Below, in pieces: positions 10,122 through 23,900 of a stretch of DNA of 24,327 nt. The translations under genes were made by a program, and so were the position numbers. The DNA is from a virus. The DNA lies in IMG/VR virus record IMGVR_UViG_3300042542_000919, positions 1 through 24,327 of that record; one strand, given 5' to 3'. A model generated the notes under the pieces. That model had not been told where the DNA came from, made no database searches, and saw nothing but the letters and a program-made list of their open reading frames with translations. Position 1 is the stretch's first letter. Every line of letters starts with the position of its first letter.

Positions 10122-10161
10122 AGTTTATAGAAAAAAAAATTAAAAATATCTGAAAAAAAAC

Positions 10162-20525: not shown

Positions 20526-20864
20526 ATGCCAAACCCTGAAAACATAGAAAAACATAAGTTTGAAAAAGGCGAAAGCGGAAACCCTAACGGCAGACCTAAA
20601 GGCGCAAAGAACAGAAGCACAATAGCAAAGTATTGGTTAGAAGTTAATCAAAAGCTAAAAAACCCTTTAACTAACCAAGAAGAAACAATGTCTCAAGAAG
20701 ATTTGATGACATTGGCACTAATCAAAAAAGCACGCGAGGGCGATGTTGCTGCATACAAAGCATTAATGGATAGCGGTTACGGTGCGCCATTACAACAAAT
20801 AGAACAAACGATTTTAGAACAACCATTATTTCCTGATGTTCAAGAGGACGACAGCAACGAATAA
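20526..20864 (+). CDS. terS: Small terminase subunit-like protein
   Basis: 112 residues. KGESGNPNGRPKGAKNRSTI (residues 14-33) is the DUF5681-like start found in proteins just before large terminase genes. A helical middle (EDLMTLALIKKAREGDVAAY) and an acidic end follow. It would recognise phage DNA and regulate the large subunit. It overlaps the large terminase start by 29 bases. The assignment rests on the motif and position. Confidence 0.65.
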   Translation: MPNPENIEKHKFEKGESGNPNGRPKGAKNRSTIAKYWLEVNQKLKNPLTNQEETMSQEDLMTLALIKKAREGDVAAYKALMDSGYGAPLQQIEQTILEQPLFPDVQEDDSNE

Positions 20865-21996
20865 GGTTCTTGCTTTAAAAAGACGAACTAAAATAATACA
20901 AGGAGGCACGGCAGCTTCGAAAACGTATTCTATTTTAGCAGTCTTAATAAACAAAGCAATACAACAACCTAACTTAGAAATAAGCGTAGTAGCTGAGTCA
21001 ATACCTCATCTTCGTAGGGGTGCATTAAAAGACTTTCTTAAAATACTTAAATGGACTAATCGCTTTAACGATGACCAGTTCAATAAATCTTTATTAACCT
21101 ACAATTTTAAAAATGGAAGTGTTTTTGAATTTTTTAGTGCGGATGATAGTAGTAAGTTACGTGGTGCTCGCCGTGATATTCTATATATTAACGAGTGTAA
21201 TAATGTTACCTTTGAATCTTATAATGAACTTTCTATACGGACTAAAAAAGAAGTATTTTTAGACTTTAACCCGGCTAATGAGTTTTGGGTACATACGGAA
21301 CTAAAAGACGAACCCGATGCAGACTTTATAATACTTACTTACAAGGATAACGAAGCCTTAGACAACTCAATAGTTGAACAAATAGAAAAGAACCGCTTAA
21401 AAGCTGAAACAAGCGCATATTGGGGTAATTGGTGGAGAGTTTATGGGTTAGGTGAAATAGGAATGTTAGAAGGCGTTATATTTAGTAACTGGAAACAGAT
21501 TGACACAATACCAAAAGAAGCAAAGTTAATAGGAATCGGTTTAGACTTTGGATATACAAACGACCCGACAGCAGCAGTTGAAATTTACAATTATAACGGA
21601 ACACGAATACTTAACGAATTAGTTTACCGAACAGGAATGTTAAACAGCGATATAGCTAAAACACTTCCTAATAGTTGCCCGATATATGCGGATAGTTCCG
21701 AACCTAAATCAATAGACGAAATAAGACGCTACGGAAAGACGATTAAAGGAGTTACAAAAGGCAAGGACTCAATTAACTACGGAATTGATGTTATGCAAAG
21801 CCAAGAATATTTAGTTACGTCAAACAGCGTTAATCTAATTAAAGAACTTAGAGCGTATTGCTGGGACGTAGATAAACAAGGCACACGACTAAATAAACCT
21901 ATTGACACAAATAACCACGCTATAGATGCTTTACGTTATCACGAAATGGAAACTTTAGGTTTAAAGCGCAATTACGGAACATATAATATACGTTAA
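20836..21996 (+). CDS. terL: Terminase large subunit
   Basis: 386 residues. The ATPase half has QGGTAASKTYSI (Walker A GGTAASKT, 23-30, with Ser before Lys as in many terminases) and DILYINECNNV (Walker B). The nuclease half has GLDFGYTNDPTA (D237), CPIYADSSEP (D286) and NNHAIDALRY (D364), the RNase H-like metal-binding acids. It cuts concatemers and pumps DNA into proheads through the portal. It is short but complete. Its stop overlaps the next ATG as TAATG. Confidence 0.92.
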   Translation: MFKRTTATNKVLALKRRTKIIQGGTAASKTYSILAVLINKAIQQPNLEISVVAESIPHLRRGALKDFLKILKWTNRFNDDQFNKSLLTYNFKNGSVFEFFSADDSSKLRGARRDILYINECNNVTFESYNELSIRTKKEVFLDFNPANEFWVHTELKDEPDADFIILTYKDNEALDNSIVEQIEKNRLKAETSAYWGNWWRVYGLGEIGMLEGVIFSNWKQIDTIPKEAKLIGIGLDFGYTNDPTAAVEIYNYNGTRILNELVYRTGMLNSDIAKTLPNSCPIYADSSEPKSIDEIRRYGKTIKGVTKGKDSINYGIDVMQSQEYLVTSNSVNLIKELRAYCWDVDKQGTRLNKPIDTNNHAIDALRYHEMETLGLKRNYGTYNIR

Positions 21997-22176: not shown

Positions 22177-22920
22177 ATGAAGTTAGAATTAATCGTACCA
22201 ACTAAGTTAAGTGAGATTCCTTTAAAGCATTACCAAAAGTTTTTAGGTATTGCCAAAAACACGAATGATGAGGTTTTTTTAGCTGAGAAAATGATACAAT
22301 GTTTTTGCGGTATCGAACTAAAAGAAGTAGTTAAAATTCAGTTTAAAGAAATAGAATCATTAAGTCATCATTTTGCTGCGATGTTTAAACAAAAGCCTGA
22401 GTTTAAAAATAGGTTTAAGATTGCAGGAGTTGAATTTGGTTTTATTCCTAACTTAGAAAATATGAGCTGGGGAGAATATATAGACTTAGAAGCCAATATA
22501 AGCGATATAAACAACTTTCACAAAGCAATGGCTGTTATGTATCGTCCTATAGTAGAAAAACACGGAGACAAGTATAAGATTGAACCTTACGAAAGTTCTG
22601 CTAACTATTCCGAAATAATGGAAAACGTTAGTTTAGATATAGCATTAGGAGCAAAGGTTTTTTTTTACAATTTAGAGAACGAGTTGTTAGGGGCTACCCT
22701 GTCTTATTTGGAGACGGAGATAATGAAGGAGAAGGAGATAGCAACGACTTTAGCGAAAGAGCTCAATTTAGCAAACAATGGGGCTGGTATCAAAGCATAT
22801 ATGCAGCAGCTAAAGGAGACGTCACAAAGTTTGAAGAAGTTACCCGACTTCGACTTACAACAGCACTTACCTTTCTTACTTTCGAAAAGCAGAAAATCGA
22901 AATTGAGCAACGTGAATTAA
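22177..22920 (+). CDS. Tail assembly chaperone-like protein, zero-frame product
   Basis: 247 residues from ATG 22177; a TTG at 22117 is rejected because it lies inside the preceding gene. LIVPTKLSEIPLKHYQKF, EKMIQCFCGIEL, FGFIPNLENMSWGEYIDLEA and KAMAVMYRPIVEK form a pattern found in Bacteroidota phage genes between terminase and tail genes. By place it would be the counterpart of lambda gpG. Residues 164-247 (NLENELLGATLSYLETEI, NGAGIKAYMQQLKETSQSL) are coded by a stretch that is also open in the -1 frame. Homopolymer T58-T66 (22658-22666) lies at the branch point. Confidence 0.65.
   Translation: MKLELIVPTKLSEIPLKHYQKFLGIAKNTNDEVFLAEKMIQCFCGIELKEVVKIQFKEIESLSHHFAAMFKQKPEFKNRFKIAGVEFGFIPNLENMSWGEYIDLEANISDINNFHKAMAVMYRPIVEKHGDKYKIEPYESSANYSEIMENVSLDIALGAKVFFYNLENELLGATLSYLETEIMKEKEIATTLAKELNLANNGAGIKAYMQQLKETSQSLKKLPDFDLQQHLPFLLSKSRKSKLSNVN
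22659..22665 (+). other. Candidate -1 ribosomal slippery site T TTT TTT
   Basis: In the frame of the 22177 gene the codons GTT TTT TTT TAC contain the perfect X XXY YYZ heptamer T TTT TTT. The -1 frame is open from 22632 to 22943. A weak AGGG/CCCT hairpin (22689-22700) lies downstream. The site is within a nine-T run. Confidence 0.65.
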
Positions 22921-22946
22921 ATAGACAATTTAAAAAAGGAATATGA
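22665..22946 (+). CDS. -1 frame extension: alternative C-terminus of the tail chaperone-like protein
   Basis: If ribosomes slip -1 at 22659-22665, residues 1-163 of the zero-frame protein join 93 new residues (total 256). They include VVRGYPVLFGDGD, then FSKQWGWYQSIYAAAKGDV, FEEVTRLRLTTALTFLTFEK and EIEQRELNRQFKK. I recognise the GWYQSIY...GD...FEEVT......L..L.FEK pattern as a typical C-terminus in such phages. No ATG, GTG or TTG occurs in this frame from 22632 to that block, so it cannot start by itself. Its stop (22944-22946) overlaps the next ATG (22943) exactly as in other coupled gene pairs here. Role: T-like partner for tube or tape assembly, by analogy with lambda gpGT. Confidence 0.65.
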   Translation, partial: LQFRERVVRGYPVLFGDGDNEGEGDSNDFSERAQFSKQWGWYQSIYAAAKGDVTKFEEVTRLRLTTALTFLTFEKQKIEIEQRELNRQFKKGI

Positions 22947-23401
22947 GTTATTACGGAATATTAAACATAATTAAATCTGAGTTAGAATCAACTGACTTAG
23001 TGAACACGGTAACGCAAGGAGATATATTTAGAATCGACTTAGCTAAACAAACTATATTTCCGTTAGCTCATATCATTGTAAATAATGCAACGTTTGAAAG
23101 TAATGTTATTCGTTATAATATTTCTATAATTGCTATGGACGTAGTGGATATATCAAAAGACGAAACAACGGACATTTTTGTAGGAAATGATAACGAGCAA
23201 GATGTATTGAATACTCAGATAACAATGTTAAATCGTGTTTACGATAGATTAACTCGTGGCGATTACTTTTTAAATTTAGGAATCATTGACGGCAACCCAA
23301 CTTGTGAACCATTTATAGAAAGGTTCGAAAATAACTTAGCAGGTTGGACGATGACATTTGATTATTTGATAGGAAACGAAATGACTGTTTGCGATGGATA
23401 G
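22943..23401 (+). CDS. Tail completion/terminator-like protein
   Basis: 152 residues: QGDIFRIDLAKQTIFPLAHI, FVGNDNEQDVLNTQITMLNR and FERFENNLAGWTMTFDY-type segments (ERFENNLAGWTMTFDYLI). This family follows the preceding one in Bacteroidota phages; the size and mixed fold fit tail-terminator or neck proteins. It has no recognised catalytic site. Its ATG overlaps the stop of the -1 frame, not of the zero frame, of the previous gene. Confidence 0.6.
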   Translation: MSYYGILNIIKSELESTDLVNTVTQGDIFRIDLAKQTIFPLAHIIVNNATFESNVIRYNISIIAMDVVDISKDETTDIFVGNDNEQDVLNTQITMLNRVYDRLTRGDYFLNLGIIDGNPTCEPFIERFENNLAGWTMTFDYLIGNEMTVCDG

Positions 23402-23900
23402 GCAGCAAGTTTTAGATAGGTTCGTAAAGCACGTTGTTAGTCAAGCTAAGAAGAATTTAACGACTACAAATAAAAACGCTTCTAAGAAACTATACAATTC
23501 AATTAAGGGCGAAGCAAAAGCCTTTCCGAACTCAATAGGTATTTATTTCGATATGGAGGAATACGGCTTCTTTCAAGATAAAGGGGTTTCAGGTGTTAAG
23601 AAAAAATATGATACTCCATTTAGTTATAAATCTAAAATGCCGCCGCCAAAAGCATTTGATAAATGGACTATTCGCAAGGGAATTGCACCGAGGGGAGCAG
23701 GTGGTAAATTCCAAAGCCGTAAAGGTTTAAATTTTGCTATTGCTCGTTCCATATTTGAGAAAGGAATTAAACCGAGTTTATTTTTTACAAAACCATTTGA
23801 AGCAGCTTTTAAAAACCTACCCGATGACTTAATAGAAAGCTACGGGTTTGAAGTTGAAGATTTATTTAATGACATAATGAACCAAACATTTAGAAAATGA
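23394..23900 (+). CDS. HK97-gp10-like neck / tail-completion protein
   Basis: 168 residues, basic. MEEYGFFQDKGVSGVKKKYD, then MPPPKAFDKWTIRKGIAP, GAGGKFQSRKGLNFAIARSI and GIKPSLFF: the 'eYg.f.DkGVsG...P......W...kGi' layout is that of gp10-like head-tail joining proteins. It overlaps the previous gene by eight bases and the next by ATGA. Confidence 0.6.
   Translation: MDRQQVLDRFVKHVVSQAKKNLTTTNKNASKKLYNSIKGEAKAFPNSIGIYFDMEEYGFFQDKGVSGVKKKYDTPFSYKSKMPPPKAFDKWTIRKGIAPRGAGGKFQSRKGLNFAIARSIFEKGIKPSLFFTKPFEAAFKNLPDDLIESYGFEVEDLFNDIMNQTFRK

Follow-up and report, generated by a model that had tools for sequence, protein, structure and literature searches.

The window, by which we mean the whole stretch of DNA that was analysed, is IMG/VR virus record IMGVR_UViG_3300042542_000919 and comprises 24,327 bases. 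Downstream of its terminase large subunit gene lies a gene with two possible ends (Table 1). The zero frame of this gene runs uninterrupted from the ATG at 22177 to the TAA at 22918-22920, and over its 3' part lies a second open frame, in the -1 phase, that contains no ATG, GTG or TTG codon. The two frames share a run of nine Ts, read as GTT TTT TTT TAC in the zero frame. Past this run the zero frame continues for 84 residues and the -1 frame for 93, with 255 bases of DNA in common (22666-22920), and a change of frame at the run would give a predicted fusion protein, GT, of 256 aa (163 common residues plus 93). An earlier note on this DNA had described the zero frame reaching 22920, the start-less -1 frame with its in-register heptamer, the two C-termini over about 255 common bases, and an ATGA overlap with the next gene formed by the -1 stop rather than the zero-frame stop; all of this was confirmed by the reading frames. 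Among the 229 sampled relatives with both ends complete, ATGA, GTGA or TTGA is found at the -1 stop in 124 and at the zero-frame stop in 23.

Table 1. Positions of the two-ended gene, its parts and its neighbours in the window.
Feature	Positions	Strand	Details
Terminase large subunit, upstream	20836-21996	+	Pfam PF04466, 8.2e-15
G-type protein, zero frame	22177-22920	+	247 aa: common N part (residues 1-163) and 84-residue zero-frame tail
-1 open frame without start	22632-22946	+	Open from after TAG 22629-22631 to TGA 22944-22946
Run of nine Ts	22658-22666	+	Likely the conserved unit; nine in 238 and ten in 7 of 245 distinct sites
T TTT TTT heptamer	22659-22665	+	Zero-frame register; 245/245 distinct sites
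-1 (T-type) extension	22665-22946	+	93 aa, bears WGWYQSIY block; predicted helical, mean pLDDT 86
First 20 post-slip codons	22666-22725	+	Codons 2-20 counted; about equal constraint in both frames
Post-slip codons 41-60, zero frame, GIKAYMQQLKETSQSLKKLP	22786-22845	+	Second block with zero-frame constraint
Last 24 zero-frame codons and stop	22846-22920	+	Open; zero-frame constraint not detectable
ATGA overlap of -1 stop with next start	22943-22946	+	Next ATG at 22943-22945; zero-frame stop not involved
Next gene, phrog_30964	22943-23401	+	Function unknown
Second downstream gene, phrog_29822	23394-23900	+	Function unknown

The only other nine-base runs of A or T in the window, at 2748-2756 and 10131-10139, both start outside the listed genes, the last base of the first run being also base one of the gene at 2756. 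Two open frames on opposite strands, of 190 aa (plus) and 191 aa (minus), occupy nearly the same stretch at 2163-2749.

Relatives of the gene were gathered by scans of viral contigs and genome contigs, to which the Nonlabens phages P12024L and P12024S were added, giving 308 sequences with the window included. Three viral-contig scans confirmed 584, 588 and 582 relatives, of which the best 80 were kept from each, and the set is thus a sample. Because the first scan drew some of its patterns from the zero-frame tail, it may have been biased towards long tails; the alignment scans that came later took theirs from the common N part and the T part. The site was reached in 306 of the 308 sequences (L057 and L058 end before it and were dropped), yielding 245 distinct site sequences. 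Some loci are re-fetches of one contig, and counts were therefore made on distinct site sequences, among which kinship remains. Where a sequence held several in-register heptamers the T-rich one was preferred. L046, L047 and L054 were left out by hand at one step, and L054 is also absent from the distinct-site count, its site being a duplicate of that of L053.

The site proved uniform across this sample: TTTTTTT stands in register at every distinct site, and the T-run is never seven or eight bases long (Table 1). A recount over all 306 sequences gave a run of nine in 297, ten in 8 and seven in one; the recount took the first T7 of each gene, and the lone seven is an earlier T7 in L146, whose site itself has nine. 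Phe-Phe is preceded by V at 220 of the distinct sites, by L at 20, by G at 3 and by F and I at 1 each, and the -1 tail begins with L at 213 sites and with F at 32. The earlier note had feared a miscounted run, with eight or ten Ts in reality. Homopolymers are indeed prone to error, but an indel from sequencing or assembly, or a pseudogene, has a negligible probability here: the same site, with a run of nine or ten, recurs in 245 distinct sequences from many metagenomes and two cultured phages, and selection acts on both frames, as set out below. The most distant members with the site are P12024L, whose fusion is 27% identical to that of the window, and L139, at 30% identity in its best segment and 22% in the T part. 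The genome-contig scan found two relatives, one from a Flavobacterium MAG (L138) and one from a Bacteroidetes MAG (L139). Together with the host of P12024L, Persicivirga sp., these suggest that the hosts of the group probably belong to the Bacteroidota.

The two tails differ in how far their lengths are held. Homologues with one frame full of stops had been sought as a sign against a dual-frame gene. In every one of the 229 relatives for which both ends are complete, the -1 frame stays open over 77-94 codons. The zero-frame tail ranges from 16 to 91 residues and reaches at least 48 codons in 201 of the 229 (48-72 residues in 115 and more than 72 in 86), but it is 30-47 residues long in 10 and shorter than 30 in 18. 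Outside this set, the -1 tail of L054 stops at 59. On a gene tree of 90 representatives, the short zero-frame tails (16-40, and one of 54) lie on the side of P12024 and L139 and those of 48-91 on the other, with L076 (19) as the exception; the tree was midpoint-rooted and does not settle the direction of the change in length. A candidate -1 start ahead of the W-G-W-Y block was found in 19 of 232 relatives and none in the window, so a separate start for the -1 product is not general and was set aside.

Two sequences are worth recording individually. The zero-frame tail of L076 stops after 19 codons, whereas L074, which differs by 4.2%, has 76, by natural loss or sequence error. L054 diverges from its twin L053 at 174 bases past the first T of the run, with a zero-frame tail of 57 beside its short -1 tail, and these early ends in both frames may reflect recombination or misassembly.

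Selection in the overlap was assessed in three ways. When the -1 protein was held fixed and synonymous codons were redrawn from pre-site usage, not one of 2000 draws for the window kept the zero frame open over its observed length, and the mean share of draws that did so was 0.017 over 99 distinct tails; short tails were unremarkable in this test (P12024L 0.30, L139 0.28). In the second approach, changes between 75 disjoint gap-free pairs of present-day sequences, drawn from the 229 full ones, were classed as silent or nonsynonymous in each frame and normalised by opportunity. NS/SS relates changes that are nonsynonymous in the zero frame and silent in the -1 frame to those silent in both, and SN/SS is its -1 counterpart; changes silent in both frames number only 3 to 18.5 per overlap bin, which makes the estimate for any one bin rough. 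The zero-frame NS/SS was 0.07 before the site, 0.14 (0.09-0.23) in codons 2-20 after it, 0.41 (0.19-1.20; alone not significant) in codons 21-40, 0.25 (0.16-0.45; 65 pairs) in codons 41-60 and 0.88 (0.42-3.03; 38 pairs) from codon 61 to the end. Past the zero-frame stop, which serves as the control, it was 1.41 (0.86-3.27), i.e., no zero-frame constraint. Conversely, SN/SS was 0.86 (0.72-1.05) before the site, with no clear -1 constraint, and 0.10-0.18 within the overlap, including 0.18 (0.12-0.27) in codons 2-20. An earlier run with 36 pairs had given an NS/SS of about 0.35 in the overlap and about 0.55 past the zero-frame stop, the latter on few sites and hence not a clean control.

A second zero-frame ratio, NN/SN, uses the changes that are nonsynonymous in the -1 frame. 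It rose from 0.16 before the site to 0.65 (0.52-0.82) in codons 2-20, 1.00 in codons 21-40 and 0.62 (0.49-0.77) in codons 41-60, then to 1.45 from codon 61 to the end and 3.13 past the zero-frame stop, which is the same trend as that of NS/SS with a weaker zero-frame constraint. In the third approach, 31 representatives of less than 80% nucleotide identity were compared with shuffles that kept their -1 proteins. The mean BLOSUM score of the zero-frame tails was 1.53, against 0.39 when shuffled by pre-site codon usage or 0.74 by tail codon usage, and the observed likeness exceeded all 60 shuffles in 378 and 258 of the 465 pairs, respectively. Most of the conservation in the tail falls in columns 0-17 and roughly 41-63, declining past about 64; Leu occupies column 6 in all 31 representatives, while conservation at columns 0 and 2 may partly mirror the T-run itself. 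A low rate of zero-frame stops in the overlap was also seen and was set aside as evidence, the regions having been cut at the shorter zero-frame tail, which is a bias.

It could be argued that only the -1 frame is functional past the site, with the open zero frame owed to chance or to avoidance of stops. Constraint on the -1 frame is at least as strong across most of the overlap, the zero-frame tail varies widely in length, its last codons are unconstrained, and NN/SN is the weaker signal. We nevertheless consider this very unlikely, given that the 95% intervals of the zero-frame NS/SS of 0.14 and 0.25 lie well below the control, that a zero-frame pattern such as the Leu of column 6 is conserved, and that none of the 2000 draws left the zero frame of the window as open as it is. 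Purifying selection thus acts on both frames over roughly 60 codons after the site, which would make these codons doubly used, as the alignment of homologues suggested in the earlier note has now indicated. The last 24 zero-frame codons of the window are open, yet no constraint on them was shown. The idea of two full-length variants with different ends is consistent with the common front, the recoding site and the two conserved ends seen in these comparisons, but needs narrowing on the zero-frame side, where about 60 of the 84 codons are conserved and some lineages have tails of only 16-40.

Recoding in tail chaperone genes is textbook ribosomal frameshifting, and tandem ribosomal slippage needs only seven Ts. 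Given recoding, the ribosome alone could account for the -1 shift if tRNA-Phe slipped in tandem on U UUU UUU, with the flanking Ts as an amino-acid effect. The earlier note spoke accordingly of a canonical slippery heptamer. Its register holds throughout the sample, but the term presumes the ribosome, whereas the conserved unit looks like a T-run of nine or ten. The in-register heptamer, which would otherwise speak for the ribosome, was dropped as evidence because a nine-base run holds one in any phase. The ribosomal reading is also consistent with the treatment of G/GT shifts as ribosomal in the literature (PMC5009743, in part), and the flanking Ts may follow from hydrophobic residues, since V or L precedes Phe-Phe in 240 of 245 sites and L or F comes first in the -1 frame in all 245. 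Against it stands the complete lack of runs of seven or eight where seven would suffice; moreover, by the available text of PMC5009743, shifting in E. coli is much weaker on U_UUU_UUU than on A_AAA_AAG.

The alternative is that RNA polymerase alone slips on T9, adding about one U in a share of transcripts, which normal translation would then turn into GT. Three sites (L145, L149 and L233) have Gly (GGT) before Phe-Phe and have thereby lost the 5' T, and all three make up for it with an extra 3' T, leaving nine in the run. Such an extra T occurs in 6 of the other 242 distinct sites, and by hand arithmetic that ignores kinship the three-of-three association has a probability of about 3.5e-5. L233 stands apart from the pair L145/L149 on the gene tree, so the compensated loss looks like two events; this favours polymerase slippage and sits poorly with a heptamer read by the ribosome. 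In excerpts of PMC1088944, selection against slippage becomes apparent in many bacteria at nine A or T, and a 9A or 9T run whose length is conserved among all homologues is regarded as very likely a site of transcriptional slippage, which is close to what the 245 sites display. The same excerpts report an insertion at a run of Us in Shigella mxiE.

Long homopolymers are scarce elsewhere in these genomes. Across 535 other mechanically chosen open frames of at least 80 aa (91 loci, 331 kb, G/T gene excluded), with expectations from codon shuffling, runs of at least nine Ts numbered 0 against 8.9 expected and runs of at least nine As 5 against 24.9. Runs of seven Ts are scarce as well (20 against 52.2 expected), which fits ribosomal or replication slippage too and weakens the argument for the polymerase. 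No conserved downstream RNA structure was detected by pseudoknot-free RNAalifold folding in 25 window-clade sequences (z 0.29 to 0.98) or in 31 representatives, and single-sequence folds gave no conserved RNA stimulator; a GGG...CCC hairpin first noted in the window and P12024L did not hold up. This agrees with polymerase slippage, but such structure is not required in these genes and its absence is normal for the class (PMC3091744, as far as its available text goes). A +1-frame stop lies within four codons in 225 of 245 sites; since the zero-frame Leu and the -1 Phe-Arg already entail it, it was not counted in favour of polymerase slippage.

Polymerase slippage has its own difficulties. The flanking Ts may be an amino-acid constraint, nothing was found on the behaviour of Bacteroidota RNA polymerase at T9 (neither "Flavobacterium" nor "Bacteroides" occurs in the available part of PMC1088944), and no tail chaperone made by polymerase slippage appeared in literature titles and abstracts on tail chaperones, frameshifting, slippage, dual coding and Bacteroidetes phages (including PMC10885494, PMC3711429, PMC2628397 and PMC6149199). 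Given the run length, the absence of conserved RNA structure and the avoidance of T9, RNA-polymerase slippage seems at least as likely as ribosomal slippage. Supposing that the gene is recoded, we would put slippage by the polymerase alone at about an even chance and a ribosomal shift alone somewhat below that, while action of both together would be rather improbable.

The G/GT class of tail assembly chaperones consists of G and a start-less -1 extension encoded upstream of the tape measure gene, usually between the genes for the major tail protein and the tape measure. G binds the tape measure and T the tube protein; both are absent from virions, and G is made in far excess. Very probably the two-ended gene belongs to this class. 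Gene order and the start-less -1 plan make the name tail chaperone, used in the earlier note, likely, but they do so indirectly, as does the fold comparison described below. On L310, a sequence from the contig of L019 in which frames of at least 110 aa were considered, a 353-aa frame at the terminase position is followed by the two-ended gene, by frames of 152, 169, 359 and 893 aa, and then, past these four genes and on the same strand, by a 619-aa protein with a match to families of tape measure proteins (phrog_3336, 1.4e-17); the searches picked out no major tail protein. The gene order of L310 (1-16353) is unusual in that an XkdF-type protease match comes after the tape measure match.

An alternative is that the protein is some other head or tail factor made by similar recoding. 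Its gene stands beside the terminase rather than the tape measure, and family matches are all of unknown function: the N part matches phrog_32199, Pfam gave no credible family for the two-ended protein, and NCBIfam and PDB sequence searches found nothing credible. The alternative is unlikely, since G with a start-less -1 extension, upstream of a tape measure gene, follows the customary G/GT layout. In the structure predicted for G from 82 sequences (mean pLDDT 79), residues 153-196 form a helix that spans the shift point, and confidence in the tail is low from about residue 190 onwards. Foldseek found no PDB match at E <= 0.001 for either part. When its candidates for the N part were examined again with VIA-align, the HK97 chaperone (2ob9) came first of seven rows, tied with an unrelated chain at Z 4.2; the alignment covers 65 residues at 3.5 A with 5% identity and may reflect no more than a common helical arrangement, so this comparison of models is a hint at chaperone kinship. 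The T domain had one PDB match (E 5.2) and a best second-look Z of 3.0 to a ribosomal protein, which is uninformative. BFVD held 37 uncharacterised relatives at E <= 0.001, P12024S among them, with Flavobacterium phage 6H weaker; an entry named tail assembly chaperone matched weakly (E 0.11), which also tells somewhat against another kind of factor.

The 6H protein gp10 (191 aa, taken as the BFVD match by its length) has no comparable site and was set aside. After gp10, about 300 unannotated bases on the minus strand of 6H (L311, 10352-10047) hold a long open frame in the -1 phase; it starts after a -1 stop near the end of gp10 and may be an unmarked extension in another family.

Taken together, the locus is best read as a G/GT-type chaperone gene of mostly uncultured, probably Bacteroidota-infecting tailed phages, in which G and a minority of GT would be made by way of T9 and about 60 codons would be doubly coding, an explanation that we hold to be probable. 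The site and its run length are conserved and both frames are under selection; we infer the two products and the ratio between them, their role as chaperones, the phylum of the hosts and whether polymerase or ribosome slips. Most decoding would yield G, and a minority would shift to the -1 frame at T9 and yield GT, which shares its first 163 residues with G and ends in the T-type domain. By analogy with the lambda model, G may coat the tape measure protein and T may recruit the tail tube protein. The zero-frame tail runs through the T coding region, and as a result about 60 codons would serve both proteins. Against this explanation, long zero-frame tails are not essential everywhere (fewer than 30 codons in 18 of 229 relatives; 19 in L076 vs 76 in L074), NN/SN makes the zero-frame constraint look weaker, and 19 of 232 relatives have a possible -1 start. 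The more specific proposition, that a group of Bacteroidota phages makes its chaperone fusion by polymerase slippage at a fixed T9, with a second, selected G C-terminus overprinted on the T region, is tentative and a little less likely true than false.

The recoded G/GT gene plan is already known, and Xu et al. in 2004 reportedly surveyed such tail chaperone genes; new here are the doubly selected overlap and the fixed T9 run. No doubly conserved G/T overlap was reported in titles and abstracts of the literature named above. The plan is present in several hundred mostly uncultured phage contigs with T9 conserved and an RNA stimulator not detected. Zero-frame tails of such different lengths over a near-constant -1 partner may record overprinting in a structural gene, and if both polymerase slippage and an overprinted G end are true, two assembly proteins are encoded together by a single stretch of 60 codons. 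The extension can be overlooked in annotation, as in P12024L and P12024S, where part of it was entered as a separate small gene. In these two genomes (L001/L002, 2501-3195), gp41 begins at an internal ATG and covers part of the -1 extension, whose first part upstream is unannotated.

The shift site of phage lambda is G GGA AAG, from which the T TTT TTT of the window differs, and the window gene adjoins the terminase gene. Lambda G/GT is otherwise alike in having one start and a short and a long product, the long one running into a start-less -1 frame, but its shift lies near the 3' end of G, whereas 84 G codons follow the shift in the window, of which about 60 are conserved (PMC5009743, available excerpts). 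P2 E/E+E' resembles the window gene in its -1 shift at a T-rich heptamer, TTTTTTG, and in lacking a downstream structure, a lack remarked on in the available text of PMC3091744. It is likened here by site and not by protein sequence; a seven-base site is named for it, against a T-run of nine or ten here, and its gene position differs. The likeness to the HK97 tail assembly chaperone (PDB 2ob9) is the weak fold match of the N part, which at 5% identity is too weak to prove kinship. Shigella mxiE likewise has two overlapping frames joined by nucleotide insertion at a run of Us, but it is a bacterial regulator, and slippage is reported for mxiE and proposed for the phage gene (PMC1088944, partial text). 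The true relatives are gp40/gp41 of the Nonlabens phages P12024L and P12024S, which also have nine Ts and a homologous -1 extension and differ in their zero-frame tail of 25 residues and in the annotation of gp41 as a separate 55-aa gene.
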